Of a stretch of 64,000 bases of DNA, positions 40,862 through 60,618 are shown one piece after another. The notes below the pieces were generated by a model. It did not search any database. It was not told the DNA's origin and worked only from the letters and a program-made list of their open reading frames with translations. Within the stretch, counting starts at the first letter, position 1. Each line of letters begins with the position of its first letter. A program made the position numbers and the translations under genes. The DNA is taken from contig NZ_QXXQ01000017.1 in NCBI RefSeq assembly GCF_003570715.1, positions 1-64,000 of the forward strand, read 5' to 3'. The stretch comes from Gemmobacter lutimaris (GTDB lineage: Bacteria > Pseudomonadota > Alphaproteobacteria > Rhodobacterales > Rhodobacteraceae).

Positions 40862-40871
40862 TCCGCGCCCC

Positions 40872-42772: not shown

Positions 42773-42853
42773 TCTTGGCCTCATTGCCGTCAGAGGAAAG
42801 GCGTGCGGGTGGGGAGCATTCACCCGCACGCGGTCGCCACGGGGGCGGGTCGC

Positions 42854-43798
42854 TTAGCGGAACTCGCCCGCCAGCGATTCAACCAGTTCGATATTGTCCT
42901 TGGTCACGAAACCCGGACCCGTGAAGATCGAATTGGCCGGGGCCACACCATAGCGCACATAGTTGGTCAGCACCTGAATCGGGACCGAGCCTTGCAGGAA
43001 GGGCTGCTGGTCAATGGCGAAATTGATGGTGCCATCCTTGATCCCGCCCGAGATTTCCGAAGACAGGTCGAAGGTGCCGAAATAGATCTCGCCATCCAGC
43101 CCCATATCCTTGACCGCACGGATCGAAGGCTCGGCCGAATTGGGGCCAAGCGTCAGGATCGCGCCGGTATCGGGGTTGGCGGTCAGATAAGCTTTGACCT
43201 TGTTCTGCACTTCCGACGGGTCGATGCCGGAATCGATCATCTGGTTGCCCAGATCGACGCCAAGCGCATCGGCAAAGCCGCGGCAGCGTTCAACCGAGGC
43301 CGGGTTGGTGATATAGTGGTTCACGCACAGGAACGAGGATACACCCGCCTCTTTCGCCCGTTTGCCCGCACCCAGACCCGCCTCGTATTCCGGCTGGCCA
43401 ACATGCATCAGCGCGCCAAGCTTCTGGCTTTCCTCGACGGTGCCCGAGTTCACGGTGACCACCGGGATGCCCTTGGCCACCGCATCCTTGATCGGGCCCT
43501 CCAGCACGTTGTAATCGGCGATGGTGACGATGATCCCGTCCACGCCAGCGGCCGAAGCCTGCTGCACGATCCGCGCCATATCGGCCAGATCGCCGGTCGG
43601 CGGATTGCGGTATTCGGTTTCCACGCCCATCTGCTCGTTCGTGACCTTGATCGCGTTCTTGATCACGTTGAACCAGCTGTCGCTGTCGGGGCCATGGCTG
43701 ATCCAGACGAATTTCTCGCCCTCGGCATGGGCTGCCCCGGCCAGTGCCGTGGTCGCAAGCAAGGCCGCTGCGGCCACGGTGTGCAACATTTTCTTCAT
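42854..43798 (-). CDS. Periplasmic sugar/cyclitol-binding protein of the CUT2 importer
   Basis: The 314-residue protein begins with a Sec signal peptide (MKKMLHTVAAAALLATTALAGAA-type; predicted cleavage after AHA near residue 25). A type I periplasmic binding fold follows, with typical segments SAAGVDGIIVTIAD, GIPVVTVNSG and GAILTLGPNSA. GGAGGAG just before ATG 43798 fixes the start and rejects the ATG at 43855. The neighbouring inositol-type catabolic genes suggest a cyclitol or related polyol as ligand, but the binding residues cannot be assigned by eye. Confidence 0.92.
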   Translation of the reverse strand: MKKMLHTVAAAALLATTALAGAAHAEGEKFVWISHGPDSDSWFNVIKNAIKVTNEQMGVETEYRNPPTGDLADMARIVQQASAAGVDGIIVTIADYNVLEGPIKDAVAKGIPVVTVNSGTVEESQKLGALMHVGQPEYEAGLGAGKRAKEAGVSSFLCVNHYITNPASVERCRGFADALGVDLGNQMIDSGIDPSEVQNKVKAYLTANPDTGAILTLGPNSAEPSIRAVKDMGLDGEIYFGTFDLSSEISGGIKDGTINFAIDQQPFLQGSVPIQVLTNYVRYGVAPANSIFTGPGFVTKDNIELVESLAGEFR

Positions 43799-43864
43799 AG
43801 GTTTCTCCTCCCTTTTGGTCGTTCGTTCGCGTCGCGGCGCCGGATGTGCCGGCAAGACCGCCGC

Positions 43865-44974
43865 TCAGGCCCGGCGTTTACGGGCCTGATCTTCCAGCGC
43901 GGTTTCCAGCCGCGCCTGATCCCATCCTTCCGCCACCGCGCGCGCCAGCAGATCCTGCTGGGTTTCCGGGGCCAGCCCGCCGATCGGCGGGTCGGTGTCC
44001 AGATTGGTCGGGAAGGGATAGCCGTCCGCGGTCGCCGCAATGACGGCACGGCGCCCTTCGGGCGAAAGCGCGGCCAGATGCGGATAGACCGCGCGCACCA
44101 TCGCGGTGCGGTCAAGGTTTTCCATATGCCGCGCAAAGGCCGAGGCGGTCTGGATCAGGTTGACCATCCGCACCACATCGGCCGTCCGGTTCTCGCCCGC
44201 CGCATGGAACAGCGCCGGGCTGAAGAAGATCGCATCGCCCTTTTCCAGCGGCAACTGAACGTGATGCGCCTCGAAATAATCGCGGAACTCGGGGCGGGTC
44301 GCGGCGATATAGCCATGCAGGTAGCGTTGCGAATGCGGCAGAAGCTTGGTCGTGCCGCTTTCCACCGGCATGTCGCAATGCGCCACCCCGCCTTGCAGGA
44401 TCAGCGTCGGCCCCGTCGCATGGATATGGTCGGGGTAAAGCGCCATCTGGTCGGGCGACATGAAGCCCAGATGATAGTCGCGGTGCGGCGCCTGCGCCTT
44501 GCCACCGGGACGCACCTGATTGACCTGGGTCGCAAGCTGGTAGCCGGGCCCAAGCCAGGCGCGGCAGGCAATGTCGATCACCGGATTGGCCATGTAGCGC
44601 GCATAAACCGCCGGATCATGCAGACACAGCTTTTGCAGGCTGTTCCAGATCCGGTCATTCGCGCCCGCCTTGGCGAAATGGTCGCCCGCCGCGATCCCTT
44701 CTGCCCGCTCCTGCGCGATGATGGCGCGGAACGCTTCGGTGGCGCTGTCGATGGCGCCCATGTCGGCGAAGGCCCGCTTGATGACAAAGACCCCCGGCCC
44801 CTGCCCGATGACCCCCGCCCATTCCGGCGCAATCGCCTCGGTCACACTGGCCCCGTCATAGATCGGGATGTTTTTCTGGATGGCCATGGCCGAAGGGCAC
44901 ATTGCCATTGTCGTCTCGGTCTCTGCATCGCTGCGAAAGGCGGCAAGGCTGATACCGGATACGAAATCTTTCAT
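43865..44974 (-). CDS. Phytanoyl-CoA dioxygenase (PhyH) family Fe(II)/2-oxoglutarate oxygenase
   Basis: The 369-residue protein has the iron-binding HxD at His164/Asp166 (APHRDYH), a distal histidine near 257 (ALFHAAGEN) and a downstream arginine for 2-oxoglutarate. It therefore looks like an active oxygenase rather than a degenerate one. GGAGGAG ahead of ATG 44974 supports the start. It is the first gene of the operon that continues with the binding protein, permease, ATPase and a dehydrogenase, and an inverted-repeat operator lies about 110 bases upstream. An oxygenase leading a cyclitol uptake operon could oxidise or O-demethylate the imported compound (for example a methyl-inositol). That substrate is my inference only. 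Confidence 0.85.
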   Translation of the reverse strand: MKDFVSGISLAAFRSDAETETTMAMCPSAMAIQKNIPIYDGASVTEAIAPEWAGVIGQGPGVFVIKRAFADMGAIDSATEAFRAIIAQERAEGIAAGDHFAKAGANDRIWNSLQKLCLHDPAVYARYMANPVIDIACRAWLGPGYQLATQVNQVRPGGKAQAPHRDYHLGFMSPDQMALYPDHIHATGPTLILQGGVAHCDMPVESGTTKLLPHSQRYLHGYIAATRPEFRDYFEAHHVQLPLEKGDAIFFSPALFHAAGENRTADVVRMVNLIQTASAFARHMENLDRTAMVRAVYPHLAALSPEGRRAVIAATADGYPFPTNLDTDPPIGGLAPETQQDLLARAVAEGWDQARLETALEDQARKRRA

Positions 44975-45081
44975 GCTGTCTCCTCCCGGATCGCGGGCGC
45001 AATCCTGCGACGCGGGATTCCCCGGCCTCCTCCGCCGCGAAACCCGTGATGTCAGTTGAAAAATTGCAAGCTTACCAGTGC

Positions 45082-45097
45082 TGCAATGAGTATTGCG
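45082..45097. promoter_or_regulatory. Inverted-repeat operator, TGCAAT-N4-ATTGCG (probable RpiR site 1)
   Basis: The site reads TGCAATGAGTATTGCG, matching 11 of the 12 defined positions of the perfect repeat TGCAAT-N4-ATTGCA found at 51184 and 56601. It overlaps the candidate -10 box of the PhyH/ABC operon. Confidence 0.65.
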
Positions 45098-45116
45098 AAC
45101 GCGTTGCAGGAGTCAA
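45089..45116 (-). promoter_or_regulatory. Candidate sigma-70-type promoter for the PhyH/ABC operon
   Basis: On the minus strand TTGACT (45111-45116) is followed after 16 bases by AATACT (45089-45094), giving 5/6 and 4/6 matches to the standard -35 and -10 boxes. The -10 box lies inside the inverted repeat at 45082-45097, as expected for repression by a bound regulator. Confidence 0.5.
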
Positions 45117-45321
45117 CAGCTATTTCGGTCCGGTCACGAATTGCACCGCGTGGTCTGTCATAGTGTGATCCGCGCAGGCCCTGCCGCGCCGGAGCCAACG
45201 GCGGCCTTCGTCAGACGCCCCCCGGCCATACCACCGCGATCTCGGAAGAAAGACTGCCGAAGGCCGCAAAATGGCCTTCGGAATGCCCCGCAGCTTCATG
45301 TCGGGGGCAACGCCGGATGCG

Positions 45322-46476
45322 CTACACCGCGACCGGCCGCAGCCAGGGCTGATCCGTGGCACCGGCGCTGTCCACCACCGCCTCGACAAAGGCCACGCCC
45401 TTCAGCCCGTCCCATGCCGTCGGCAGGTTGCGCCCGATGGCATCAGGTTCGCGCCCCTCGGCCCGCGCCCGGATCGCCTCGGCAAAGCCCGCGTAAAGAT
45501 TGGCGAAAGCCTCCAGATACCCTTCGGGATGGCCCGGCGGGGTGCGGGTGCGGGCTTGCGCATCCTCCGACAGACCCGCCGCGCCGCGTTTGATCACCTG
45601 CACCCGGCCCTCCAGCGGTGTGAGGATCAACTCGTTCGGCTGTTCCTGATACCACTGCACCGAGCCCGTCTCGCCAAAGACCCGCAGCCGCACGCCGTTG
45701 GAATTTCCAATGGCCACCTGAGATGACCAGAGCAAGCCCCGCGCGCCGCCCTGATAGCGCAGCATCACATGCGCATTATCATCCAGCGCCCGGCCGCCCA
45801 CGAAGGTCGCCAGATCGGCGGTCAGGCTGTCCAGCGTCAACCCGCTGACAAACCCCGCCAGATGATAGGCATGGGTGCCGATATCGCCGATGGACCCGCC
45901 GCGCCCGTTCTTCACCGGATCGGTGCGCCATACCGCCTGCGCATTGCCCTGCTGTTCGATGGCCGTCGCCATCCATTCCAGCGGATATTCCACCTGCACC
46001 GTGCGCACCGCGCCGATTTCGCCCGCCGCGACCCGCACGCGCGCCTCGTGCACCATCGGGTAACCCGAATAGGTATAGGTCACCCCGACAAAGCGCCCGC
46101 TGTCGCGCGCCAGTTGTTCCAGCGCCACCGCATCTGCCAGTGTGGCGGTCAGCGGCTTTTCACAGATCACGTCGAAGCCCGCCTCGATCAGCGCCTTCGC
46201 AATCGGGTAATGGGTGAAATTCGGCGTGCAGATCGCCACCGCCTCAACCCGGTCGGGCCGCGCGGCCTCTGCCGCGATCATCTCCTGCCATGTCCCGTAG
46301 CTGCGCGCGGGGTCAAGCCCCTGCGAAAGCGCGAAGGTGCGGCCGCGCTCCGGGTCCACATCGAAGGCGCCCGCCACAAGCTGCCACTGGCCATCCAGCC
46401 GCGCCGCGAGCCGGTGGATATGGCCGATATAGGCGCCCTGCCCGCCGCCCACCATGCCAAGCCGCAAGGGTCTCAT
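45322..46476 (-). CDS. Gfo/Idh/MocA family dehydrogenase (paralogue 2)
   Basis: The 384-residue protein has LGMVGGGQGAYIGHIH at the N-terminus, CEKPLTATLADA near residue 117 with the catalytic lysine, and [13 protein letters not shown] near 200. It is similar over its length to the protein at 39677-40861 and less similar to IolG. It is the last gene of the iolD operon, its ATG overlapping the preceding stop by four bases. A likely job is NAD(P)-dependent oxidation of a second cyclitol stereoisomer or a keto-sugar intermediate; the substrate is not known. Confidence 0.88.
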   Translation of the reverse strand: MRPLRLGMVGGGQGAYIGHIHRLAARLDGQWQLVAGAFDVDPERGRTFALSQGLDPARSYGTWQEMIAAEAARPDRVEAVAICTPNFTHYPIAKALIEAGFDVICEKPLTATLADAVALEQLARDSGRFVGVTYTYSGYPMVHEARVRVAAGEIGAVRTVQVEYPLEWMATAIEQQGNAQAVWRTDPVKNGRGGSIGDIGTHAYHLAGFVSGLTLDSLTADLATFVGGRALDDNAHVMLRYQGGARGLLWSSQVAIGNSNGVRLRVFGETGSVQWYQEQPNELILTPLEGRVQVIKRGAAGLSEDAQARTRTPPGHPEGYLEAFANLYAGFAEAIRARAEGREPDAIGRNLPTAWDGLKGVAFVEAVVDSAGATDQPWLRPVAV

Positions 46477-47537
46477 GCCTCATCCTCCAGCCCGAGCATC
46501 GCCCGGTTGGCGCGGCGATCCGCACCGGATTTCACGAAATCGTCGAAGGCGCGATCCGACACGCCGATGATGTGATCCGCGATGAACCGCGCGCCTTCGC
46601 GGGCGCCGTCCTCGGGGTTCTTGACGAAACATTCCCATTCCAGCACCGCCCAGCCGTCATAGCCATGCGTTGTCAGCTTGGTGAAGATCGCGCCGAAATC
46701 CACCTGCCCGTCGCCGGGGCTGCGGAAGCGACCCGCGCGTTTCGCCCAAGGCATATAGCCGCCATAGGCGCCGGATTTGCCATCGGGGCGGAACTCGGCA
46801 TCCTTCACATGGAAGGCGCGGATGCGGTCGTGGTAATGGTCAATGAAGGCCAGATAATCCAGCGCCTGAAGCACGAAATGGCTGGGATCATACATCAGAT
46901 TGGCGCGGGGGTGGCCTTTCACCTTCTCAAGGAAATACTCCCATGAATGGCCGTCGTGCAGATCCTCGCAAGGGTGGATCTCATAGCAGACATCCACGCC
47001 ATGCGCGTCGAAATCGTCAAGGATCGGGGTCCAACGTTTCGCCAGCTCGTCAAACCCCTCCTCCACCAGCCCCTCGGGCCATTGCGGATAAGGGTAAAGA
47101 TAGGGCCACAGCAGCGCACCCGAAAAGGTCACATGCCGGTCAATGCCCAGCCGGGCCGAGGCACGCGCGGCAAAGCGCAACTGCTCCTCCGCCCAGGCCC
47201 GTCGCGCCTTCGGATTGCCGCGCACCGGCGCGGGCGCGAAACTGTCCATGACCGCATCATGCGCCGGATGCACCGCCACCAGTTGCCCGGTGATATGCGA
47301 GGCAAATTCGGTGATCTGCAAACCATGGTCGGCCAGCATCCCGCGCAACTCATCGCAATAGGTGTCGCTTTCGGCAGCCAGCTTCATGTCGATCAATCGG
47401 GTGTCCCATGTCGGGATCTGCACCCCCTTGAACCCCTTGCCCGCCGCCCATGCGGCCAAACCCGGCAGGCTGTCATAGGGCGCCTGATCCGCCGCGAACT
47501 GGGCCAGAAACACCCCCGGCCCCTTGATGGTGCGCAT
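46473..47537 (-). CDS. Sugar phosphate isomerase/epimerase-like TIM-barrel protein
   Basis: This protein of about 354 residues belongs to the xylose isomerase-like TIM-barrel (AP endonuclease 2) superfamily. Metal-site features include YEIHPCEDLHDG near residue 195, MYDPSHFVLQ near 225 and HVKDAEF near 255, ending in VLEWECFVKNP. Members isomerise, epimerise or dehydrate sugars and cyclitols. I start at MRTIKGPG (47537), one base after the SDR stop; an ATG at 47588 lies inside the SDR gene. It is a second TIM-barrel enzyme beside iolE and may replace a missing step such as IolB isomerisation, though it is not an IolB homologue by sequence. Confidence 0.85.
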   Translation of the reverse strand: MRTIKGPGVFLAQFAADQAPYDSLPGLAAWAAGKGFKGVQIPTWDTRLIDMKLAAESDTYCDELRGMLADHGLQITEFASHITGQLVAVHPAHDAVMDSFAPAPVRGNPKARRAWAEEQLRFAARASARLGIDRHVTFSGALLWPYLYPYPQWPEGLVEEGFDELAKRWTPILDDFDAHGVDVCYEIHPCEDLHDGHSWEYFLEKVKGHPRANLMYDPSHFVLQALDYLAFIDHYHDRIRAFHVKDAEFRPDGKSGAYGGYMPWAKRAGRFRSPGDGQVDFGAIFTKLTTHGYDGWAVLEWECFVKNPEDGAREGARFIADHIIGVSDRAFDDFVKSGADRRANRAMLGLEDEA

Positions 47538-47538
47538 C

Positions 47539-48351
47539 TCAGCCCTCCAGCTTTGCCGCAGGCACCGGCGCCTCGTCAAAGCCACCATAGACCGACTGGT
47601 CGAAGGGGATGACCGCGCCGGTCATCATGCCGCAGTCATCCGAGGCCATCCACAGCACTGCCCGCGCCACCTCGGCCGGGTCGAGGATACGGCCAAAGGG
47701 CTTTTCTGCGGCCTTGCGGTCGATGAAGGTCGGGTCGCCCGTCTCCGACAGCACCAGCTTGCGCTCGTGGTCCGAGTTCATCCAGCCGATGTCGAGCTGA
47801 TTGACATGGATCCGGTTGCGCATCAGCGCGAAACCCGCGTGCCGGGTCAGCGTGGCCAGCGCCCCTTTCGAGGTGGCATAGGGCGCAAGGAACGGCTGCC
47901 CCGCCAGACCGGAAACCGATCCGATATTGACGATGCGCCCCTCGATCCCCTCGCGGATCATCACCTTCGCCGCGTCCTGAATCAGAAAGAACGGCGCGCG
48001 GGTGTTGACGGCCATCATGCGGTCAAACAACTCGGGGCTGGTGTTCAGCATATTGCCCCGGTCGGTCAGCCCGGCGGCATTGACCAGAATATCCACCCTG
48101 CCAAAGCGCGCATCCGCTGCCGCAACGATACCGCGCACATCGTCCATGTTGCCCAGATCGGCGGCCAGCATCTCGACCGGAACGCCGGTCGCGGCGGTGA
48201 TGTCTTCCGCCACCGCGCGGCCCTTCTCGACCCCGCGCCCGACGATCACGATGCCGCCCGCCCCGGCCGCCGCAAAGACCCGCGCGATGGCCGCGCCCAG
48301 CCCCTGCGTGCCGCCCGTGACAATGGCGATCTTGCCGTCGATGCGGTTCAT
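47539..48351 (-). CDS. Short-chain dehydrogenase/reductase
   Basis: This 270-residue classical SDR has the cofactor loop TGGTQGLGAAIA (near residue 13), the NAAGLTD motif near 90, the catalytic serine in NIGSVSG near 145, and YATSK near 160. It should oxidise or reduce a hydroxyl/keto group of a polyol with NAD(P). It is the third gene of the iolD operon, and its ATG overlaps the iolE stop (ATGA). The substrate is probably a cyclitol or an open-chain intermediate of its breakdown. Confidence 0.9.
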   Translation of the reverse strand: MNRIDGKIAIVTGGTQGLGAAIARVFAAAGAGGIVIVGRGVEKGRAVAEDITAATGVPVEMLAADLGNMDDVRGIVAAADARFGRVDILVNAAGLTDRGNMLNTSPELFDRMMAVNTRAPFFLIQDAAKVMIREGIEGRIVNIGSVSGLAGQPFLAPYATSKGALATLTRHAGFALMRNRIHVNQLDIGWMNSDHERKLVLSETGDPTFIDRKAAEKPFGRILDPAEVARAVLWMASDDCGMMTGAVIPFDQSVYGGFDEAPVPAAKLEG

Positions 48352-49241
48352 GGCATGACCTCGTAACCCGCCGCCGCCATGACGCGCAGCAGCTCCGCAT
48401 GCCCTTTCTTCGCCATCTCCAGCGGGGGAGAGACCTTCGGGTCTTGCTCTGCCTCCACCACGAACCAGCCCTCATAGCCTTTCGCCGCCAGCGCCTTCAC
48501 GATGGCCTCGAAATCCAGACTGCCATCCCCCGGCACGGTAAAGGCACCCTTCACCACCGCATCGAGGAAGCTTTCGCGCGTGCGGTCCAGCGCGTCGATC
48601 ACCGGGCGACGGATATCCTTTGTATGAACGTGCGTGATGCGCGCATGGTGGTTTTCGATCACCCGCATCACATCGCCCCCGGCAAAGGCCATATGCCCCG
48701 CATCGAACAACAGCGGCACCGAGGAATGCTGCATCAGCAGATCCAGTTCCGCCTCGGTCTCGATCACCGCCGCCATGTGGTGATGGTAGGAAACCGGCAT
48801 CCCCTGCCCCGCGCACCAATCGGCAAAATCGCTCATCTTGCGGCCATAGGCGGCAATCTCTGCCTCGGTCAGCTTCGGCTTCGTCGCCAGCGGCGCCGAT
48901 TTCACCCCCTGAATGCTGCGCGCGGTTTCGCCATAGACGATGCAGGGCGCCCCCGCTGCCTTGAAGAAGGCAAGTTGCTGCGCGATCCGTTCCTTTTCCA
49001 CCTCGATATCGCCATCCAGCAGCAGGCCGGAAAACCAGCCGCCACAGACCGAAATCCCGTATTTCGCCAGAACCGGCCCCAGCGCGCCCATGTCCATCGG
49101 GAAGCGGCGGCCCGTCTCCATCCCGGTATAGCCCGCGACCGAGGCCTGCCGCAGGCATTCCTCAAGGCTCACATCATCGCTCAATTCCGCCAGATCGTCG
49201 TTCCACCACGCGATCGGCGCAATGCCCAGTCTTGCCTTCAT
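48348..49241 (-). CDS. iolE: Inosose dehydratase (IolE-like)
   Basis: The 297-residue TIM-barrel protein opens with RLGIAPIAWWNDD, the IolE start pattern, and has YHHHMAAVIE, LFDAGHMAFAGGD, HVHTKDIR and the closing VVEAEQDP. The known reaction is dehydration of scyllo-inosose to a cyclohexane-dione that IolD opens. Its position four bases after iolD supports the call. The start is the ATG at 49241, directly after the iolD stop; a longer open frame overlaps iolD. Confidence 0.88.
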   Translation of the reverse strand: MKARLGIAPIAWWNDDLAELSDDVSLEECLRQASVAGYTGMETGRRFPMDMGALGPVLAKYGISVCGGWFSGLLLDGDIEVEKERIAQQLAFFKAAGAPCIVYGETARSIQGVKSAPLATKPKLTEAEIAAYGRKMSDFADWCAGQGMPVSYHHHMAAVIETEAELDLLMQHSSVPLLFDAGHMAFAGGDVMRVIENHHARITHVHTKDIRRPVIDALDRTRESFLDAVVKGAFTVPGDGSLDFEAIVKALAAKGYEGWFVVEAEQDPKVSPPLEMAKKGHAELLRVMAAAGYEVMP

Positions 49242-49245
49242 CCGT

Positions 49246-51117
49246 TCACACTCCAACGCGCTGGTTCGCGCGAATTGCATCCTGCGCCTTGCGCGCCGCG
49301 CGCACCTTCTCGAATGTCGAGATTTCCGGCACACCCACATCCCAGTCGGCATCGCCCGGCACCCAGGCATGGGCGTCCGACACAATGGAAATGACGGTCG
49401 GCCCGTCGTTCTGCAACGCCCATTTCACCGCCTCCTCCAGATCGGCGAGGCTGTCCACCTTGCGGGCCTTTGCACCCATCGCCTCGGCATGTCTGGCGAA
49501 ATCGACATGCAGCGGCGCATCCCGGTTCTGCACCCGGCAATCCGTCAGCAGGTTGTTGAACCCCGGCACGCCCTTGAACTGTTGCAGCCGGTTGATGACC
49601 GCATAGCCGCCATTGTCGCAAACCACGACGACCATGCGATGCCCGGTCAGCGCAGCGGAATAGATATCTGAATTCATCATCATATAGGTGCCGTCGCCCA
49701 GCATCACGATGGGCGTGCCACCAGTCGCACCGGGGCCTTCCTGCGCCATGGCACAGCCCCAGCCCGCCGCGATCTCATAGCCCATGCAGGAAAAGCCGAA
49801 CTCGCAATCGAAAGTATTGGGGCTTTTCACCCGCCAGCCCTTCGTCACCTCGCCCGGCGTGCCGCCTGCCGCCGCGATCAGCGTGTCATCCGGCCCGGCC
49901 ACCTTGTTCAGCACCCCCACCACCTGCGCATAGGACGGCACGGCGGCATTGGTCGGGCGCTGGTGATCATCCACAAGCGCGTTCCATTCGGCAAACAGCC
50001 GTTGCGCGCGGGTCATCAGACCGGCCTCTGCCGCCCAATCGCCAAGCGCCGCATCCAGATCGGCCAGCGCCTCTTTCGCATCGCCCACCACCGACAGAGC
50101 CCGGTGCTTCACCGCATCGAACCGCGCCGCATTGACCGAGATGAACTTCGCATCCTGAGCAAAGGCCGTCCACGACCCGGTGGTGAAATCCTGAAGCCGC
50201 GTGCCGATGGCAAGGATCACATCGGCCTCTTTCGCCAGCGCATTGGCCGAGGTGGACCCCACGATCCCGATGGGCCCGGCATGGACCGGATGGTAATGCG
50301 TCAATGCCCCCTTGCCCGCGATGGTTTCCACCACCGGAATCCCGCGCCGCGCCGCGAAATCGGCCAGCTCTGCCTCGGCCAGCGAATAGCGCACTCCGCC
50401 GCCCGAGATGATCAGCGGTTTCTTCGCCCCCTTCAGCGCCGCCGCCGCCCCGGCCACGGCGTCACGGTCAGGCCGCGGACGCGGGATTTTCCAGACCTTC
50501 GGCTCAAAGAACACTTCCGGGTAATCGAAGGCCCTTTCCTGCGTGTCCTGCGCCAGCCCGATGAAGGCCGGGCCGCAATCGGCAGGGTCCAGCATGGTGG
50601 CAATCGCCTGCGGCAGCGAGGAGATGATCTGTTCCGGCAGCGTGATCCGGTCCCAGTAGCGCACAACCGGCTTGAAGGCATCGTTCACCGTCACCGTCGG
50701 GTCGCCGAAATGTTCCACCTGCTGCAACACCGGGTCGGGCAGCCGGTTGGCGAAAGTATCGCCCGCCAGCAACAGCACCGGCAGCCGGTTGGTCATCGCC
50801 ACACCCGCCGCCGTCACCATATTGGCCGCCCCCGGCCCGATCGAGGTTGCCGCCACCATGATCTGCCGCCGCCGCTTGGCCTTGGCAAAGCCGATGGCCG
50901 CCAGCGCCATGCTTTGCTCGTTCTGGCCGCGCCAAGTCGGCAACTGGTCCTGCACCTGCTCCAGCGCCTCTGACAGGCAGGTCACATTGCCATGGCCGAA
51001 GATCCCGAACACCCCCGCGAAAAGCGGAACGCGGGTGCCGTCGATCTCGGTGAACTGGTTGCACAGATAGCGCACAAGAGCCTGAGCCATGGTCAGGCGC
51101 ACGGTGGTCCGGGACAT
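49246..51117 (-). CDS. iolD: 3D-(3,5/4)-trihydroxycyclohexane-1,2-dione acylhydrolase (IolD)
   Basis: This 623-residue thiamine diphosphate enzyme has the IolD pattern: MAQALVRYL and PLFAGVFGIFGHGN at the N-terminus, GQNEQSMA with the cofactor-activating glutamate near residue 67, and the ThDP motif GDGTYMMMNSDIYSA near 470. It hydrolyses the ring of the diketone produced by IolE, yielding 5-deoxy-glucuronate. GGAGGAGG before ATG 51117 marks the start. It is the first gene of the five-gene minus operon and is divergent from iolG, with one operator between them. Confidence 0.93.
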   Translation of the reverse strand: MSRTTVRLTMAQALVRYLCNQFTEIDGTRVPLFAGVFGIFGHGNVTCLSEALEQVQDQLPTWRGQNEQSMALAAIGFAKAKRRRQIMVAATSIGPGAANMVTAAGVAMTNRLPVLLLAGDTFANRLPDPVLQQVEHFGDPTVTVNDAFKPVVRYWDRITLPEQIISSLPQAIATMLDPADCGPAFIGLAQDTQERAFDYPEVFFEPKVWKIPRPRPDRDAVAGAAAALKGAKKPLIISGGGVRYSLAEAELADFAARRGIPVVETIAGKGALTHYHPVHAGPIGIVGSTSANALAKEADVILAIGTRLQDFTTGSWTAFAQDAKFISVNAARFDAVKHRALSVVGDAKEALADLDAALGDWAAEAGLMTRAQRLFAEWNALVDDHQRPTNAAVPSYAQVVGVLNKVAGPDDTLIAAAGGTPGEVTKGWRVKSPNTFDCEFGFSCMGYEIAAGWGCAMAQEGPGATGGTPIVMLGDGTYMMMNSDIYSAALTGHRMVVVVCDNGGYAVINRLQQFKGVPGFNNLLTDCRVQNRDAPLHVDFARHAEAMGAKARKVDSLADLEEAVKWALQNDGPTVISIVSDAHAWVPGDADWDVGVPEISTFEKVRAARKAQDAIRANQRVGV

Positions 51118-51165
51118 CTCGCCTCCTCCTGCGGATGGGTTTGGCAGGAGACTACGGAATGTCCA

Positions 51166-51199
51166 TTGACATTACAATAGTTCTGCAATGAATATTGCA
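51166..51199. promoter_or_regulatory. Divergent promoter region between iolD and iolG
   Basis: A perfect TTGACA lies at 51166-51171 on the plus strand, about 12 bases before the inverted repeat, nearly the same geometry as upstream of the PhyH gene. The -10 box for iolG is not clear by eye. For iolD, TTGTGC and TATTGT with 17 bases between them flank the repeat on the minus strand. Both promoters could be shut by one protein bound at 51184-51199. Confidence 0.45.
51184..51199. promoter_or_regulatory. Inverted-repeat operator, perfect TGCAAT-N4-ATTGCA (probable RpiR site 2)
   Basis: The site reads TGCAATGAATATTGCA, a perfect 6-4-6 inverted repeat between the divergent iolD and iolG operons, 25 bases before the iolG start and 67 bases from the iolD start. 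Confidence 0.72.
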
Positions 51200-51223
51200 C
51201 AACGCTTTCGGGAGGAGAACGAA

Positions 51224-52231
51224 ATGCTCAGGATCGCCGTCCTCGGCTGTGGCCGCATCGGGCGCATGCACGCCGAAAACATCGCCCGCCATCCGCGCGC
51301 AGCGCTTGCCGGGGTTTATGACACATACAACCCCGCTGCCGTCGAAGTATCGGAAAAGCTTGGTGTTCCCCGCTTCGAATCGGCCGAAACCGTCTTCGCA
51401 TCGACGGCGGTGGATGCCGTGCTGATCGCCACATCGACCGCCACCCATGTCGATTACATCGAACAGGCCGTTGCGGCAGGCAAGCCCATCCTTTGCGAAA
51501 AGCCCATAGACCTGTCGCTGGACCGGGTGAACGTCTGCGCTGCCCGTATCGCCGATACCCGCCTGCCCATCATGCTTGGCTTCGTGCGCCGCTTCGATGC
51601 CGGTCACGCCGCCGTGCGCCGCGCCATCGCCGATGGCACGCTGGGCGAGTTGCATCAGATCGTCATCACCTCGCGCGATCCGGGCATGGCACCCGATGCC
51701 TATATCGAGGTCTCGGGCGGCATCTTCCGCGACATGACAATCCATGATTTCGACATGGCCCGTTTCATGCTGGGCGAAGAAGTGACCGAAGTCACCGCCA
51801 CTGGCGCCCGCCTCGTCGATCCGGCGCTGATGGAACGCTGCAACGATTACGACACCGTCACCGTCGTGCTGAAAACCGCCAGCGGCAAACAGGCGGTCAT
51901 CGTGAACTCGCGCCGCGCCGTCTATGGCTATGACCAGCGGGTCGAGGCGTTTGGTTCAGGCGGCATGGCCATCTCTGAAAACCGCCGCATGAACAATATG
52001 CAGCTTTACGGGGCCGATTTCACGGCACAGGGCGCGGTGCTGCAAAATTTCTTCATCGACCGCTATGCCGAGGCTTTCGCGGCAGAGATTGACGCCTTCG
52101 TCGATGCGGTGGAAACCGGCACCCCGGTCGCGGTCGGGTTCGAGGATGGCCGTCTCGCCCTGCTTCTGGCCGAGGCCGCGATCCGTTCGGTCGCCGAGGG
52201 GCGCAGCGTGCGCACAAGCGAACTGGGCTGA
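51224..52231 (+). CDS. iolG: Inositol 2-dehydrogenase (IolG-like)
   Basis: The 335-residue Gfo/Idh/MocA protein has IAVLGCGRIGRMHAENIA at the N-terminus, the catalytic lysine in CEKPID near residue 97, and IHDFDMARFMLGEE near 175. The overall pattern, including SGGIFRDMTIHD, is that of inositol 2-dehydrogenases, which oxidise myo-inositol to scyllo-inosose with NAD. GGAGGAG at 51211-51217 decides for the ATG at 51224; an in-frame ATG at 51188 lies inside the operator and has no ribosome site. It leads the five-gene plus operon. Confidence 0.9.
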   Translation: MLRIAVLGCGRIGRMHAENIARHPRAALAGVYDTYNPAAVEVSEKLGVPRFESAETVFASTAVDAVLIATSTATHVDYIEQAVAAGKPILCEKPIDLSLDRVNVCAARIADTRLPIMLGFVRRFDAGHAAVRRAIADGTLGELHQIVITSRDPGMAPDAYIEVSGGIFRDMTIHDFDMARFMLGEEVTEVTATGARLVDPALMERCNDYDTVTVVLKTASGKQAVIVNSRRAVYGYDQRVEAFGSGGMAISENRRMNNMQLYGADFTAQGAVLQNFFIDRYAEAFAAEIDAFVDAVETGTPVAVGFEDGRLALLLAEAAIRSVAEGRSVRTSELG

Positions 52232-52233
52232 CC

Positions 52234-53664
52234 ATGTATCGCCCGTTCGGCCTGTTCATCAATGGCGGCTGGCACCAGCCTGCCGCCACCGCGCCGGTGA
52301 TCTCGCCCGTCACCGGGAAATCGCTGGGCGAGGCACCCGCCGCCACCCTGCCCGAAACACAGGCTGCGCTGGACGCCGCCGCCCGCGCCCTGCCCGCCCT
52401 GCGCGCCATGGGCGGCTTTGCCCGCGCCGAGGCATTGCATCGCGCGGCGGATGCGATGCTCGCCCGCGCCGAGGAAGGCGCGCGCATGATCGCCACCGAA
52501 ACCGGCAAGCCCCTTGCGCAGGCCGGGCGGGAATGGGCGCTCGCCTGCGACCAGTTCCGCTGGTATGCCGAGGAAGCCCGCCGCATCTATGGCCGCATTG
52601 TCGAAAGCCGCGTGCCCGGCGGCCGGTTCGAGGTGACACAGGAACCCGTCGGCGTGGTTGGCGCCTTCACCGCCTGGAATTTCCCTGCCGCCCTGCCCGC
52701 CCGCAAGCTCGCCCCCGCGCTGGCGGCAGGCTGCCCGGTAGTGTTGCGCCCCTCGTCGCAGACGCCCGGCGTCGCCATGGTCATGGTGGATTGCCTGCGC
52801 GCGGCCGGTTTGCCCGATGGCGCGGTGAACCTCGTGGTCGGATCGACTGCCGCCACCTATGCCCCGATCATGGCCGATACCCGCGTCCGCAAGGTCAGCC
52901 TCACCGGATCGACCCGGGTGGGCCAGCAGATGATCCGCGACGCCGCCGCCACGGTCAAGAAAGTGTCCATGGAACTGGGTGGCAACGCCCCCGCAATCAT
53001 CCACGACGATGCCGATCTGGACGCCGCGCTGGATCTTTGCGTGCCGACGAAATTCGCCAATTGCGGGCAGGTCTGCGTGACGCCCGACCGGTTCTTCGTG
53101 CATGACAGTCTGCATGATGCCTTCGTCGAAGGCTTCGTTGCCCGCGCCGCGAAGATCCGGCTGGGCGACGGGCTGGACCCGGAAACCGGCATGGGCCCGC
53201 TGATCAATGCGGCCCGCCTGACCGAGATCGACGCGGTGGTGCAAGAGGCCGTGGCGGCAGGGGCCACGCTGGCGCATGGCGGCAGGCGTGCTCCGGAATA
53301 CAACACCGGCTTTTTCTACCAACCGACCGTGCTGACCGACGTGACCGACGACATGCGGGTCTTTGCCGAAGAAAACTTCGGCCCCGTCGCCGCCATCACC
53401 CGTTTCACGACCGAGGACGAGGCGCTGGCCCGCGCCAATGCCAGCGACATGGGCCTGTCGGCCTATGCCTTCACCCGGTCGCCCGACCGCGCGCGGCGCA
53501 TGGTGGCGGGGCTGAAGGCGGGCATGGTGGGAATCAACAGCTTCGCCCTCGCCGCCTCCGAGGCGCCCTTCGGTGGCACCAACCATTCCGGCATGGGCCG
53601 CGAGGGCGGCAGCGAGGGGATCGGCGATTACCTCGATACCAAGCTGGCGCAGATCGTGTTCTAG
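52234..53664 (+). CDS. NAD(P)-dependent aldehyde dehydrogenase, succinate-semialdehyde dehydrogenase-like
   Basis: The 476-residue ALDH has the general acid/base glutamate in MELGGNAPAII near residue 248, the catalytic cysteine in FANCGQVCVTPDR near 282, and AFTAWNFPAAL near 145. The N-terminal FGLFINGGWH and overall length match the succinate-semialdehyde/glycolaldehyde group rather than the CoA-acylating MmsA/IolA group. It therefore probably oxidises a free semialdehyde released by the HpaI-type aldolase encoded next. It starts two bases after iolG; the aldolase follows after ten bases with its own GGGAGG site. Confidence 0.9.
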   Translation: MYRPFGLFINGGWHQPAATAPVISPVTGKSLGEAPAATLPETQAALDAAARALPALRAMGGFARAEALHRAADAMLARAEEGARMIATETGKPLAQAGREWALACDQFRWYAEEARRIYGRIVESRVPGGRFEVTQEPVGVVGAFTAWNFPAALPARKLAPALAAGCPVVLRPSSQTPGVAMVMVDCLRAAGLPDGAVNLVVGSTAATYAPIMADTRVRKVSLTGSTRVGQQMIRDAAATVKKVSMELGGNAPAIIHDDADLDAALDLCVPTKFANCGQVCVTPDRFFVHDSLHDAFVEGFVARAAKIRLGDGLDPETGMGPLINAARLTEIDAVVQEAVAAGATLAHGGRRAPEYNTGFFYQPTVLTDVTDDMRVFAEENFGPVAAITRFTTEDEALARANASDMGLSAYAFTRSPDRARRMVAGLKAGMVGINSFALAASEAPFGGTNHSGMGREGGSEGIGDYLDTKLAQIVF

Positions 53665-53674
53665 GGAGGCGACG

Positions 53675-54484
53675 ATGCAGAACAGGCTGAAACAGATCTG
53701 GGCCGCAGGCCGCCCCGCCCTGAACGGCTGGCTGTCCATAGGCAACAGCTTCACCGCCGAGATCATGGCAGCACAGGGCTATGACAGCCTCACCGTCGAT
53801 CTTCAGCACGGCGCGCTGGATTACAGCGCGCTGCTGCCGATGTTGCAGGCGATGCGCGGCGCGGGCGTGGTGCCGATGGCGCGAGTGCCGTGGCGCGAAC
53901 CCGGCATCGTGATGAAGGCGCTGGACGCGGGCGCCATGGGCATCATCTGCCCCATGATCAATTCCGGCGCCGAAGCGGCGGAATTTGTAAGCTACCTGCG
54001 TTATCCGCCGCTGGGCCAGCGCAGTTTCGGCCCCACCCGCGCCGCGGTTGCCCATCCCGGCTACGGCCCCGCCGTCAATGACCAGATCCTTGCCCTTGCA
54101 ATGATCGAGACACAGGCGGGCATCGACAATCTGGAACAGATCGCGGCGACGCCCGGCCTTGACGGGCTTTACATCGGCCCGGCCGATCTGACGCTGGGCA
54201 CCCAGAACGGCCGCCTGCCCCCCGGCTTTGACCGGGAGGAGCCGGAAATGGTGGCGCTGATCCAGCGCATCCTCGCCGCCTGCAAGGCCAATGGCATCCG
54301 CGCCTGTCTCCATTGCGGCACCCCCGCCTATGCCGCCAAGGCCATCGGCTGGGGCTTTGATCTGACCACCGTGTCGGGCGATTCCCGGCTGCTGGCCGGG
54401 GCTGCCGCCGCCTCGGTCCGTGACTGGCGGCAATTGACCGGGGCAGAGCCGCTGCCCACCCCGGACCAGAAAGGGGGCTACTGA
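53675..54484 (+). CDS. HpcH/HpaI-family class II aldolase
   Basis: The 269-residue TIM-barrel enzyme shows VDLQHGALDY near residue 42, MARVPWRE near 70, the metal ligands in MIETQAG and GLYIGPADLTLG, and GIICPMINS. The family cleaves 4-hydroxy-2-oxoacids to pyruvate plus an aldehyde. In this operon it could cleave a non-phosphorylated 2-oxo-3-deoxy acid, giving an aldehyde for the preceding dehydrogenase; this is inference. GGGAGG at 53664-53669 selects ATG 53675. Confidence 0.9.
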   Translation: MQNRLKQIWAAGRPALNGWLSIGNSFTAEIMAAQGYDSLTVDLQHGALDYSALLPMLQAMRGAGVVPMARVPWREPGIVMKALDAGAMGIICPMINSGAEAAEFVSYLRYPPLGQRSFGPTRAAVAHPGYGPAVNDQILALAMIETQAGIDNLEQIAATPGLDGLYIGPADLTLGTQNGRLPPGFDREEPEMVALIQRILAACKANGIRACLHCGTPAYAAKAIGWGFDLTTVSGDSRLLAGAAAASVRDWRQLTGAEPLPTPDQKGGY

Positions 54485-55449
54485 TGCCGCATCTTCTGGT
54501 GGCCGGAAAATTGCACCCGACGGGCGAGGCGATGCTGCACAGCCTTCAGGCGCAGGGTCTGGGGGTGGATTACGTCGAGGAGGTCTCGGAGCCCTCCTAC
54601 GCGCCACTGATCCACCGGGCCGATGCGCTGGTGATCCGCACCCAGCCGCTGACGGCCGCGACCGTGGCGCAGGCAGAACGGCTGCGCGTGGTGTCACGCC
54701 ATGGTGTCGGGTATGATTCCGTCGATCTGGCGGCACTGAACGCGCGCGGCATCGCGTTGACCATCGTGGGCGATGTCAACTCCGTCTCGGTGGCGGAACA
54801 CGCCATGATGCAGCTTCTGGCTGGCGCCAAACGTGCGCTGCGCGCTGACCGTTCCGTGCGCGCGCCAGATGGGTGGAACTGGCGCAACCGTCTGGAAGCG
54901 CAAGAGATTTCCGGGAAGAACCTGTTGATCCTTGGCTATGGCCGCATCGGGCGGCATCTGGCGCGGATGGCGGCGGGCTTTGACATGCAGGTGCGCGCCT
55001 GCGACCCCTTCCTTGAAGGCAAGGGATGGCCTGACGGGCGGGTGCGACCCGTGCCTCTGGACGAGGGGCTGCCATGGGCCGATTGCATCTCGGTCCATAT
55101 TCCGAAAAGCGACCGCCCTGTCATCGGCGCCGCCGAAATCGCCCGCATGAAGCGCGGGGTGATCCTTGCCAATACCGCGCGCGGCGGGGTGGTGGACGAG
55201 GCGGCCCTTGCGGCGGCGTTGGCTTCGGGCCAGATCGCCGCCGCCGGGGTGGATGTGTTCGACACCGAACCGCCCGCGGCCTCCCCTCTTCTGGCACAGG
55301 ACAACGCGATCCTGTCGCCGCATATCGCCGGGCTGACCGCCGACTGCGGCGAACGCATGGCCATTGCCGCAATCCAGAATGCCCTTCAGTGCCTAGACGG
55401 CACCATAGACCCTGATCTGATCGTCAACCGGAACATCCTTCATGTCTGA
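54484..55449 (+). CDS. D-isomer-specific 2-hydroxyacid dehydrogenase
   Basis: The 321-residue protein has the Rossmann loop LGYGRIGRHLA near residue 145 and the catalytic arginine (NTARGGVVDE), glutamate (VFDTEPPA) and histidine (LSPHIAGLT) in the standard order. It interconverts a 2-hydroxyacid and a 2-oxoacid with NAD(P). Next to an HpaI aldolase it may supply or remove the 2-oxoacid, or act as a glyoxylate/hydroxypyruvate-type reductase. Its ATG overlaps the aldolase stop (TGATG). Confidence 0.9.
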   Translation: MPHLLVAGKLHPTGEAMLHSLQAQGLGVDYVEEVSEPSYAPLIHRADALVIRTQPLTAATVAQAERLRVVSRHGVGYDSVDLAALNARGIALTIVGDVNSVSVAEHAMMQLLAGAKRALRADRSVRAPDGWNWRNRLEAQEISGKNLLILGYGRIGRHLARMAAGFDMQVRACDPFLEGKGWPDGRVRPVPLDEGLPWADCISVHIPKSDRPVIGAAEIARMKRGVILANTARGGVVDEAALAAALASGQIAAAGVDVFDTEPPAASPLLAQDNAILSPHIAGLTADCGERMAIAAIQNALQCLDGTIDPDLIVNRNILHV

Positions 55450-56563
55450 CAAACCCAAACTGCGCATCGGCCTGATCGGCACCGGCTTCATGGGCAAGAC
55501 CCATGTCTTCGGCTTCGCCACCGCCGCCAAGGTCTTCGACCTGCCGTTCGAGGTGGAGTTGCACACCGTCGCCGATGTGACGGAAAGTGCGGCCCGCAAG
55601 GCGGCCGAGGCCTGGGGCTTTGCCCATGCGACCGCCGACTGGCGGCAGATGGTGGCCGATCCGGCGATTGATCTGGTGGACATCACCGCCCCCAATGCGC
55701 TGCACAAGGACATGGCGCTGGCCGCGATCCGGGCGGGCAAGCATGTCTATTGCGAAAAGCCGCTGGCCCCTCTGGCCGCCGATGCGCAGGAAATGGCCCT
55801 CGCAGCCGAGGCAGCAGGCGTGCGCACGCAGGTCGGTTTCAACTATCTCTGCAACCCGATGCTCCACCTTGCGCACGACATGATCGCGGCGGGGGAGCTG
55901 GGCGAGATTCGCGCCTATCGCGGCGTCCATGCCGAGGATTACATGGCCGATGCCACCGGCCCCTTCACCTTCCGCCATGATCCGGCGGGCGGAGGGGCGC
56001 TGGCCGACATCGGCAGCCATGCGCTTGCCACCGCCGAATTCCTGCTGGGCCCGATCACCCGCGTGATGGGCGACTGCGTGACCGTGATCGACAGCCGCCC
56101 CGGCAGCGATGGCCAGCCACGGGCCGTCGAGGTCGATGACATCGGCCGCGCCTTCCTGCGGTTCGCCAATGGCGCGAGCGGCAGCATCGAGGCGAACTGG
56201 ATCGCCACCGGCCGCAAGATGCAGCATGACTTCGAGGTCTATGGCTCGAAAGGCGCGCTGGTCTTCAGTCAGGAACGCTTCAACGAACTGCATTTCTACG
56301 CGACCACCGATGCCGCCGGACGCCGGGGCTTCCGCCGGATCGAGGCCGCGCCGGATCATGCGCCCTATGGCGCCTTTTGCGTGGCGCCCGGCCATCAACT
56401 TGGCTTCAACGATCTGAAGGCAATCGAGGTGGCCGGGTATCTGGCTGCCATTGCCGGCAAACGGGCTGAACCCTTCGGTTTTCGTGCCGGATTGCGCATC
56501 CAGACCCTGATCGAGACGATCCAGAATTCGGCCCGCGCGGGCAGTTGGCTGGCCGTGCCCTGA
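55442..56563 (+). CDS. Gfo/Idh/MocA family dehydrogenase (fourth copy in the regulon)
   Basis: The 373-residue protein has IGLIGTGFMGKTHVFGF at the N-terminus, CEKPLAPLAADA near residue 105, and ADIGSHALATAEFL near 190. It is a third subtype, distinct from IolG and from the paralogue pair at 39677 and 45322, and resembles dehydrogenases for sugar-derived substrates. It overlaps the end of the hydroxyacid dehydrogenase gene by eight bases and ends the plus-strand operon. About 110 bases with an operator precede rpiR. Confidence 0.88.
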   Translation: MSDKPKLRIGLIGTGFMGKTHVFGFATAAKVFDLPFEVELHTVADVTESAARKAAEAWGFAHATADWRQMVADPAIDLVDITAPNALHKDMALAAIRAGKHVYCEKPLAPLAADAQEMALAAEAAGVRTQVGFNYLCNPMLHLAHDMIAAGELGEIRAYRGVHAEDYMADATGPFTFRHDPAGGGALADIGSHALATAEFLLGPITRVMGDCVTVIDSRPGSDGQPRAVEVDDIGRAFLRFANGASGSIEANWIATGRKMQHDFEVYGSKGALVFSQERFNELHFYATTDAAGRRGFRRIEAAPDHAPYGAFCVAPGHQLGFNDLKAIEVAGYLAAIAGKRAEPFGFRAGLRIQTLIETIQNSARAGSWLAVP

Positions 56564-56600
56564 CGGCGGCCAGTAAGTTGGAAATCATCGGATGGCCGTC

Positions 56601-56616
56601 TGCAATTTTCATTGCA
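56601..56616. promoter_or_regulatory. Inverted-repeat operator, perfect TGCAAT-N4-ATTGCA (probable RpiR site 3)
   Basis: The site reads TGCAATTTTCATTGCA and lies 57 bases before the rpiR start, suggesting autoregulation. A weaker partial repeat (TGCAAG-N5-related, from 56641) follows it. Confidence 0.7.
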
Positions 56617-56672: not shown

Positions 56673-57548
56673 ATGACAGAAATCGGGACAGAACCCCCGA
56701 AGGATTATGAAGCGCTGATCCGGCTGATCCATGAGCGCCATGACCGGATGAGCAAGACCTATCAGCAAATCTCGGTCTTTCTGACGCAGAATCCCAATGA
56801 TGTGGCGGTGCAATCGGTGAATGCCATTGCCGAACGCTGCGGCATCCATGCCTCCAGCTTCGTGCGGTTCGCACAATCGCTGGGCTACAAGGGTTTCAAG
56901 GAGTTGCAGCTGCTGTTCCAGAAGCGGCTTTCCACCGCCGCGCCGGGGTTCGAGGCGCGGGTGAAGGCGCTTGAGGAGGAGCTTCAGGGCCGCGAGGATG
57001 CCTCGGATTACGGCTTCCTGCGCGATCTGGTGGTGCGCGACATCGCCTCGCTGCAAAGCCTGCTGGATGACATCCCGCCAGAAAGCCTCGCCAGCGCCGC
57101 CGATCTGCTGCACGGGGCCGAGACGGTCTATCTGCTGGGCCAGTTGCGCTCCGCGCCGGTGGTGGAACTGCTGCGCTATGTCTTCACCATGCTGGGCAAG
57201 CGCTGCGTCCTGCTGGACAGCGGCGGCGGGCTGGCCACCCATATGGCCCGCACCATCACCGAACGCGATGTGCTGCTGGCGGTCTCGTTCCGGTTCTACG
57301 CCAATGAGGTGGTGAATATCGTCGAGGAAGCGGGTAGCCGCAACGTGCCCATCGTCGCGGTCACCGACAGCACGCTGAGCCCGCTGGCCAAATCGGCACG
57401 GGTGCTGTTTGCGGTGCCCGAACACGATTATTCCTTTTCACGCTCGCTGGCCGCGCCGATGTGTCTGGTTCAGGCGCTGTCGGTCGCGCTGGCCTCGCGC
57501 GTGCAGCGGGGCGCCGCGCCGCGCATTCCCACGGTCACGGGGGCCTGA
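56673..57548 (+). CDS. RpiR-family transcriptional regulator of the cyclitol regulon
   Basis: The 291-residue protein has an N-terminal HTH_6 domain (about residues 12-90, with AIAERCGIHASSFVRFAQSLGYKGFKELQ) and a C-terminal SIS sugar-phosphate isomerase-like domain (about 120-250, with VYLLGQLRSAPVVELLRYV). This is the plan of RpiR regulators, including rhizobial IolR. GGAGG at 56661-56665 fixes the start at 56673. It lies downstream of the iolG operon, behind a copy of the inverted repeat shared by all three transcription units, and is the only regulator in the catabolic region. Whether it represses or activates, and its ligand, are inference. Confidence 0.9.
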   Translation: MTEIGTEPPKDYEALIRLIHERHDRMSKTYQQISVFLTQNPNDVAVQSVNAIAERCGIHASSFVRFAQSLGYKGFKELQLLFQKRLSTAAPGFEARVKALEEELQGREDASDYGFLRDLVVRDIASLQSLLDDIPPESLASAADLLHGAETVYLLGQLRSAPVVELLRYVFTMLGKRCVLLDSGGGLATHMARTITERDVLLAVSFRFYANEVVNIVEEAGSRNVPIVAVTDSTLSPLAKSARVLFAVPEHDYSFSRSLAAPMCLVQALSVALASRVQRGAAPRIPTVTGA

Positions 57549-60605: not shown

Positions 60606-60618
60606 GGGGGTGTCCCCC
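60606..60618. repeat. GGGGG-TGT-CCCCC palindrome overlapping the replicase leader
   Basis: A 5-3-5 inverted repeat ends one base before the GGAGG ribosome site (60619-60623) of the replicase. It contains the same TGTCCCC core as the upstream repeats, so it may be an operator for the initiator itself or a translation-limiting hairpin. Confidence 0.4.

Follow-up and report, generated by a model that had tools for sequence, protein, structure and literature searches.

A TGCAAY palindrome as predicted operator of an RpiR-family regulator in a second inositol gene cluster of Gemmobacter lutimaris

A 64,000-nt stretch of Gemmobacter lutimaris DNA (hereafter the window) carries iol genes, ABC transport genes and a gene for an RpiR-family regulator, which raises the question of which DNA sequence this regulator reads and how far its regulon extends. 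A first-pass annotation had proposed that one inverted repeat, TGCAAT-N4-ATTGCA, marks every control point of a cyclitol regulon and is a strong operator candidate of the RpiR protein. Here we explore the distribution of this palindrome in the window, in the remainder of the genome and in loci of related regulators. Among the matches listed in open PubMed Central, which includes few subscription papers, none concerned the TGCAAY operator or its RpiR.

The palindrome and the genes behind it

Three copies are found in the window, with coordinates and match quality as first annotated. O1 (TGCAATGAGTATTGCG, 45082..45097) has one mismatch and lies 107 bp upstream of the start of a PhyH dioxygenase gene; O2 (TGCAATGAATATTGCA, 51184..51199) is perfect and is common to the divergent genes iolD (at 66 bp) and iolG (at 24 bp); O3 (TGCAATTTTCATTGCA, 56601..56616), also perfect, lies 56 bp upstream of rpiR. 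The three sites serve four transcription units, namely PhyH/ABC, iolD-iolE, iolG-ALDH-HpcH and rpiR. At most one mismatch being allowed, these three copies compare with 0.14 expected, and three or more were obtained in none of 100 dinucleotide shuffles. A further copy at this stringency was not found in the window beyond 45082, 51184 and 56601, in line with the annotation, in which no other copy had been noticed. When up to three mismatches are tolerated, 15 sites are found versus 20.8 expected, no more than chance, hence only strong sites carry meaning.

The transcription units other than rpiR were inferred from gene order. The unit behind O1 (39677..44974, minus strand) encodes the PhyH dioxygenase, a sugar-binding protein, a permease, an ATPase and a Gfo/Idh/MocA oxidoreductase, permease and ATPase being named from sequence. 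On the minus strand behind O2 (45322..51117), TIGRFAM and Pfam hits identify iolD (TIGR04377) and iolE (TIGR04379), both above cut-off, followed by an SDR, a xylose-isomerase-like and a Gfo/Idh/MocA gene. The plus strand unit (51224..56563) consists of iolG (TIGR04380, above cut-off) and, by Pfam, genes for an aldehyde dehydrogenase, an HpcH/HpaI aldolase, a 2-hydroxyacid dehydrogenase and a Gfo/Idh/MocA protein. Neither iolB nor iolC is present in the window cluster. The regulator (56673..57548, plus strand) combines an N-terminal HTH_6 domain (PF01418, 50.2 bits, cut-off 28.3) with a C-terminal SIS domain (PF01380, 55.6 bits, cut-off 25), the architecture of the RpiR/MurR family; in its structure model (mean pLDDT 79.3) residues 60-69 form the recognition helix.

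Putative promoters were located by a simple consensus scan. As the annotation had noted, O1 covers a candidate -10 box of the PhyH/ABC operon, AATACT at 45089-45094. O2 contains the putative -10 of iolG, with TTGACA at 51166-51171 as its -35, and O3 that of rpiR, which suggests autoregulation of rpiR via this site.

Conservation with orthologues of the regulator

Absence of the motif from orthologous loci, or a random frequency across the replicon, had been named beforehand as grounds for giving up the proposal; neither was encountered. TGCAAY-N4-RTTGCA, with at most one mismatch, occurs no further than 300 bp upstream of a recognised cluster gene in 62 of 70 loci that encode an RpiR orthologue, and loci with the motif span Rhodobacterales, Rhizobiales, Thalassospira and Pseudomonas gingeri. 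Across relatives the motif is looser than first written: the sixth half-site base can be either T or C, and C often replaces the outer T. Most sites outside recognised genes (112 of 141, at most one mismatch) fall within 300 bp upstream of such a gene, and seven control patterns of other sequence yielded 0 or 1 site upstream of recognised genes. The eight loci lacking such an upstream site include both dereplicated Acetobacteraceae loci; seven of the eight have looser candidate copies, NGCAAY-N4-RTTGCN, at some position in the retrieved stretch, and the 4-kb locus L190 has no copy of this form.

Upstream regions of iolD point the same way. Of 20 orthologous loci with iolD, 12 have TGCAAT-N4-ATTGCA, one mismatch being tolerated, in the 250 bp upstream of the gene, and when 36,864 combinations of half-site and spacer were ranked there, the top eight were the palindrome, its shifted registers and one-letter variants of these. 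TGGAAT-N4-ATTCCA was found in the same regions in 0 of 20 loci within one mismatch and in 5 within two. A second set of 47 dereplicated named loci (835 kb) contains 44 exact copies of TGCAAY-N4-RTTGCA, spread over 30 loci; 360 composition-matched palindromes reached a median of 0 loci, the best unrelated one 3, and exact TGGAAY-N4-RTTCCA was found in none. Upstream of rpiR itself (300 bp, one mismatch) TGCAAY-N4-RTTGCA is present in 6 of 23 family orthologues, a low share owed in part to loci in which rpiR belongs to an operon, and conservation at this position alone proved a poor test.

Of the sampled genomes of the family, 23 have the RpiR and 371 do not; an exact palindrome occurs at least once in 11 of the former and in 76 of the latter (Fisher p=0.007). 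Genomes with the RpiR contain 15 exact copies, 8 of them no more than 12 kb from rpiR and 7 away from the locus, these last as background would give. Since RpiR-free genomes also contain exact copies, a rare background exists, from which the copies at the locus stand out.

Two RpiR regulators and two operators in one genome

Outside the window, the 4.66 Mb genome holds a single perfect TGCAAT-N4-ATTGCA, at C45:246284, and six exact TGCAAY-type sites. Five of the six are inside open frames of 376-583 codons, as judged, without gene calling, from the length of the frame and the GC content at each codon position; the sixth, C45:246284 itself, lies amid small frames and was treated as background. 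Further sites with one mismatch are present outside the window, C23:178984 being one of them.

The first-pass statement that one RpiR regulator is present holds for the window; the whole genome encodes five above the Pfam cut-off. A second one adjoins an iolC-D-E-B cluster on contig C1 and comes with a GGAA-N6-TTCC motif, the very motif from which the window palindrome had rightly been said to differ. TGCAA-N6-TTGCA is absent from this cluster, which has TGGAAY sites instead, and neither operator type was found, with up to two mismatches, in the stretch surrounding the iolA candidate (C1:241102, the sole gene above the TIGR01722 cut-off). The annotation had asked whether hits elsewhere include iolB, iolC or iolA; they do not, and extension of the regulon to these genes is ruled out for the Gemmobacter lutimaris genome. 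The palindrome therefore marks the control points of the window cluster only, not of all inositol genes.

We call IolR type the RpiR encoded beside iolC-D-E-B, an assignment made from its motif and neighbours, together with its orthologues. At 30 loci of this type, scored for presence of sites in the locus irrespective of position, TGGAAT-N4-ATTCCA occurs within one mismatch in 28 and TGCAAT-N4-ATTGCA in 0. A single symmetric base pair separates the two operators, TGCAAT for the window RpiR and TGGAAT for the IolR type. TGGAAY-N4-RTTCCA is not found within one mismatch in the window, and in the 70 orthologue loci it occurs three times outside recognised genes, never upstream of one. Both regulators are present in 7 of 394 sampled genomes, each with its own operator type.

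The two RpiR proteins of G. lutimaris share 34% identity, and the window RpiR belongs to a clade of 23 (support 0.999) apart from 29 IolR-type proteins (support 0.867), so that it does not qualify as an IolR orthologue. The common clade of the two groups also takes in six other RpiR proteins, placed between them, and we therefore make no claim that one group arose from the other. In the recognition-helix region, residues 59, 62, 64 and 67 have no letter common to both groups and residue 60 only one P, while S61 and R65 are invariant in both; as the operator split follows the two clades, it cannot by itself name the causal residue.

The S. meliloti inositol regulator is reportedly named RpiR-like in the title of a cited paper. 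The window system resembles that of alphaproteobacterial IolR (Caulobacter crescentus CC1297, Sinorhizobium meliloti SMc01164) in that an inositol regulator is paired with a 16-bp palindrome of identical spacing, with a TG.AAY frame shared with GGAA-N6-TTCC, and placed upstream of iol genes (here iolD and iolG) and ABC transport genes. It differs in having C instead of G at the third half-site base and in the predicted control of a cluster without iolB and iolC. SpNanR (PDB 9DQN), likewise an HTH and SIS protein, has a recognition-helix arginine, Arg56, that aligns with R65 of the window RpiR. In the SpNanR-DNA structure this arginine contacts a base pair of the nanE site 5.5 bp from the dyad, the distance at which the switched base pair is found here. 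SpNanR differs in being an activator of sialic acid genes, with N-acetylmannosamine-6-phosphate as effector and TCTGAAAGTACTTTTAGA as recognition sequence.

Predicted mechanism and alternative readings

Judging from sequence comparison, the regulator encoded in the cluster very probably binds at the palindrome, and the operator proposal of the first-pass annotation gains support. With considerable confidence we predict that the protein encoded at 56673-57548 acts there as repressor of a self-contained second inositol/cyclitol regulon, which we read as separately controlled and whose cluster lacks iolB and iolC. A dimer would bind the two GCAAY half-sites and, positioned over the putative -10 boxes of PhyH/ABC, iolG and rpiR and beside the divergent iolD promoter, would block RNA polymerase; relief would come from a cyclitol breakdown product, presumably through its binding to the SIS domain. 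The separate IolR-type RpiR would run iolC-D-E-B via TGGAAY-N4-RTTCCA, and one symmetric base pair together with matching recognition-helix changes may keep the two circuits apart.

That control is by repression is predicted from the putative promoters. An RpiR protein that reads the same palindrome as inducer-dependent activator or dual regulator, like SpNanR, is improbable but has a precedent: the SpNanR report describes equal DNA binding with and without effector and activation of transcription (PMC12713135). Against it stand the three promoters whose putative -10 boxes are covered by sites, as is usual for repression, and the derepression of iol promoters upon iolR deletion in Caulobacter, described by Boutte et al. 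2008 (PMC2597717). In Caulobacter, mutating one GGAA-N6-TTCC site raises iolC-lacZ expression, a precedent for the operator reading, and mutating the second of two sites of this type made no difference in the medium employed, which speaks against it (PMC2597717). Less credible still, and in our view very unlikely, is that another shared regulator reads the palindrome and that its company with rpiR is mere synteny; the genome does offer other RpiR-type proteins, five being encoded in all, but the site goes with the window-type RpiR in several orders and where gene order is rearranged, Bradyrhizobium and Pseudomonas gingeri among them, and loci of the IolR type carry the TGGAAY version instead. 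Chance, or a bias of GC-rich genomes towards TGCA-rich words, has a negligible probability and was rejected on the shuffles, the iolD-upstream ranking, the composition-matched palindromes and the upstream counts of the 70 loci: the pattern is common in the genome with two mismatches (95 versus 9 for the reversed control) and exact copies occur in the 76 RpiR-free genomes mentioned above, but strong sites gather at promoters of the window locus and its orthologues and composition-matched palindromes do not.

For a regulator that occurs in many bacteria of soil, sea and plants, an operator and a regulon can now be predicted, and its targets in other genomes can be listed from them. The two regulators also form a natural pair of related proteins in one cell with sites one symmetric base pair apart, a direct test case for how RpiR proteins select their sites.

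More tentatively, and at slightly less than even chances for the whole, Alphaproteobacteria might run two inositol regulons insulated by this single symmetric operator base pair. The IolR-type RpiR (TGGAAY) would govern an iolB/iolC route, and the window RpiR (TGCAAY) a non-phosphorylating iolD-ALDH-HpcH route; the switched base pair would be the contact of the invariant arginine, so that its neighbours H59, S62 and V64 must have re-tuned it; and a window-type RpiR would give Bradyrhizobium an inositol operator. The last point bears on a remark of Boutte et al. 2008 that B. japonicum, in which IolR and its motif are missing, must rely on a different mechanism (PMC2597717). Bradyrhizobium accounts for 8 of 80 named loci (seven isolates and one metagenome bin, B. 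japonicum itself not included), and in each of the eight a site with no more than one mismatch occurs at least once outside recognised genes.

Palindromes and predicted promoters in the window

According to the first-pass annotation, the inverted repeat TGCAAT-N4-ATTGCA occurs at 45082-45097, 51184-51199 and 56601-56616, with no other copy noticed in the window. A window scan bore out both positions and exclusivity: at up to one mismatch these three sites stand alone, versus a mean of 0.14 in shuffled sequence, and three were reached in none of 100 shuffles. At up to three mismatches the count is at chance level. The exact palindrome is found three times genome-wide (4.66 Mb, 76 contigs), twice within the window and once at C45:246284.

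The first site (45082-45097) precedes the PhyH/ABC/Gfo operon by 107 bp. The second (51184-51199) is flanked by the divergent genes iolD, 66 bp away, and iolG, 24 bp away, and the third (56601-56616) is 56 bp ahead of rpiR (56673-57548, + strand). As far as gene order tells, the three sites would serve four transcription units. IolD, IolE and IolG of the cluster pass curated family cut-offs and the RpiR protein has HTH_6 and SIS domains. Promoters were predicted by means of a simple consensus scan, which placed a putative -10 box inside the palindrome for PhyH (-35 TTGACT, 45111-45116), iolG (-35 TTGACA, 51166-51171) and rpiR (-35 TTGGAA, 56578-56583); for iolD the overlap is limited to a weak putative -35. 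Such placement over predicted promoters is, as judged from sequence, repressor geometry. Additional TTGCA/TGCAA half-sites are found some 20 bp from the first site on either side (45063-45109), possibly for a tetramer.

Conservation among orthologous loci

Full orthologues of the window RpiR (at least 65% identity) were identified in 23 of 394 sampled family genomes, G. lutimaris included; one additional genome has a fragment at a contig end and the remaining matches among those listed show 29-36% identity. The exact palindrome is present in 87 genomes, 11 of the 23 with and 76 of the 371 without this regulator (Fisher p=0.007). The regulator-bearing genomes have 15 exact copies in all, of which eight are no further than 12 kb from rpiR; the remaining seven, C45:246284 included, look like background. 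Allowing TGCAAY-N4-RTTGCA, the 22 RpiR-bearing genomes other than G. lutimaris have 41 exact occurrences, and 21 of these, spread over 15 genomes, are at most 12 kb from rpiR.

For 20 of the 23 loci iolD was within the fetched stretch and its upstream 250 bp were scanned. TGCAAT-N4-ATTGCA was found at up to one mismatch in 12 and up to two in 16, as compared to none and five for TGGAAT-N4-ATTCCA. The top eight of 36,864 half-site/spacer combinations are the palindrome, its shifted registers or one-letter variants of these.

A wider set consisted of the best 80 of 193 loci from a scan of species genomes (68-83% identity), covering Rhizobiales (Rhizobium, Agrobacterium, Mesorhizobium, Bradyrhizobium, Ochrobactrum and relatives), Rhodobacterales, Thalassospira, Acetobacteraceae and Pseudomonas gingeri. 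Removal of 33 with an RpiR at least 90% identical to that of a first-set or kept locus left 47. Thirty of these contain exact TGCAAY-N4-RTTGCA, with 44 copies in total, and none contains exact TGGAAY-N4-RTTCCA; 360 composition-matched palindromes gave a median of 0 loci, the best unrelated one reaching three.

Both sets together gave 141 sites (up to one mismatch) that are not inside recognised genes, and 112 of these precede a recognised gene by no more than 300 bp. Such an upstream site is present in 62 of 70 loci (21/23 and 41/47). Of the control patterns, seven with a different sequence, TGGAAY included, gave 0 or 1 upstream sites, and two that keep the half-site but alter the spacer length by one base gave 6 and 3. 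The consensus is TTTGCAAY-RATY-RTTGCAAA, in which the outer letters are weak and the core is partly set by the site-selection procedure. The eight loci that lack an upstream site include both dereplicated Acetobacteraceae loci (L169, L190); the fetched stretch of seven includes looser candidate copies (NGCAAY-N4-RTTGCN), and the 4 kb stretch of L190 has none.

The earlier proposal that the palindrome is an operator holds, the element being real and conserved across 62/70 orthologous loci. It is most likely the operator of the local RpiR and, as to type, represents a variant within the class of RpiR operators already known.

Two regulators and their probable operators

Of five RpiR-type proteins above the Pfam cut-off in G. 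lutimaris, a second, IolR-type one is encoded at C1:136960-137790, upstream of and on the same strand as iolC. The genome has its iolB there rather than on the window contig, within the cluster iolC-iolD-iolE-iolB. All four products exceed the curated cut-offs of their families, and iolC encodes a kinase-aldolase fusion. Motif copies precede iolC (TGGAATATTTATTCCA) and the rpiR (TGGAACATATATTCCA), and correspond to the GGAA-N6-TTCC motif of Caulobacter and other alphaproteobacteria (Boutte et al. 2008, PMC2597717). In the Caulobacter mutations described there, altering one of two copies raised iolC promoter expression and altering the other left it unchanged in the medium of that experiment.

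IolR-type loci have TGGAAT-N4-ATTCCA at up to one mismatch in 28 of 30, and in a 29th (L114) by a separate scan; TGCAAT-N4-ATTGCA at up to one mismatch is found in 0/30. Seven of 394 genomes (G000, G068, G104, G112, G225, G247, G285) encode both regulators, the IolR-type defined by at least 63% identity to the G. lutimaris copy, and in all seven each regulator has its own operator type (TGCAAY-N4-RTTGCA or TGGAAY-N4-RTTCCA, up to one mismatch). The interest lies in such paired operators, which differ by one base pair per half-site, and in a second inositol regulon. The only same-genus genome sampled, G361, lacks the window-type RpiR and has an IolR-type one (77% identical), hence this second regulon is patchy.

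Invariant R65 of the window RpiR aligns with Arg56 of SpNanR, an RpiR protein with a DNA-bound structure. According to a preprint (PMC12713135), SpNanR no longer binds when Arg56 is lost; this residue touches the purine at nanE position 4, where a G to T change likewise abolishes binding. The contacted position, 5.5 bp from the dyad, corresponds to the third half-site base here, at which IolR-type sites have G and window-type ones C. R65 and S61 are retained in both groups. Window-type and IolR-type residues are, respectively, H and P/Q/A at 59, A (once P) and P at 60, S/T and A at 62, V and M/I at 64, A and C at 67, and K/R and S (27/29) at 76, which matches minor-groove Arg67 of SpNanR. Residues 60-69 form one helix in the predicted model (protein mean pLDDT 79.3). 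We infer from this comparison of two clades that these differences may cause the operator switch; SpNanR reads its own site largely indirectly.

Possible role and genomic setting

Among 60 loci with iolD, HpcH/HpaI aldolase is encoded in 51, 2-hydroxyacid dehydrogenase in 52 and both together with aldehyde dehydrogenase in 44; in the stretches fetched iolC is present in just two and iolB in one. This block without iolB and iolC suggests a non-phosphorylating branch after IolD. Going by enzyme families, we propose that neither IolB nor IolC would be needed: 5-deoxyglucuronate from IolD would be oxidised to 5-deoxyglucarate, a 2-keto acid would form from this, and its cleavage would yield malonate semialdehyde plus hydroxypyruvate. 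The existence of a separate regulator would then be explained by a distinct effector. No description of such a route was found among the papers listed in searches of the open PubMed Central library. Clusters iolG/iolE/iolD of this kind are found at 51224-56563 and in orthologous loci.

The sugar-binding protein at 42857-43855 matches rhizopine-binding family NF052284 (262.6 bits, below the cut-off of 420). Combined with the presence of a PhyH dioxygenase, this match gives a hint that the substrate is a methylated or amino cyclitol. In loci L125, L129, L141 and L142, too, the window-type RpiR has the PhyH/ABC block as a neighbour.

Proteins adjoining the cluster (57705-61304) are ParB-like, ParA-like and a weak match to DnaA N-terminal (below cut-off), hence the 80 kb contig C9 may be a plasmid. 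Orthologous locus L172 (Jiella pelagia) lies on a named plasmid.
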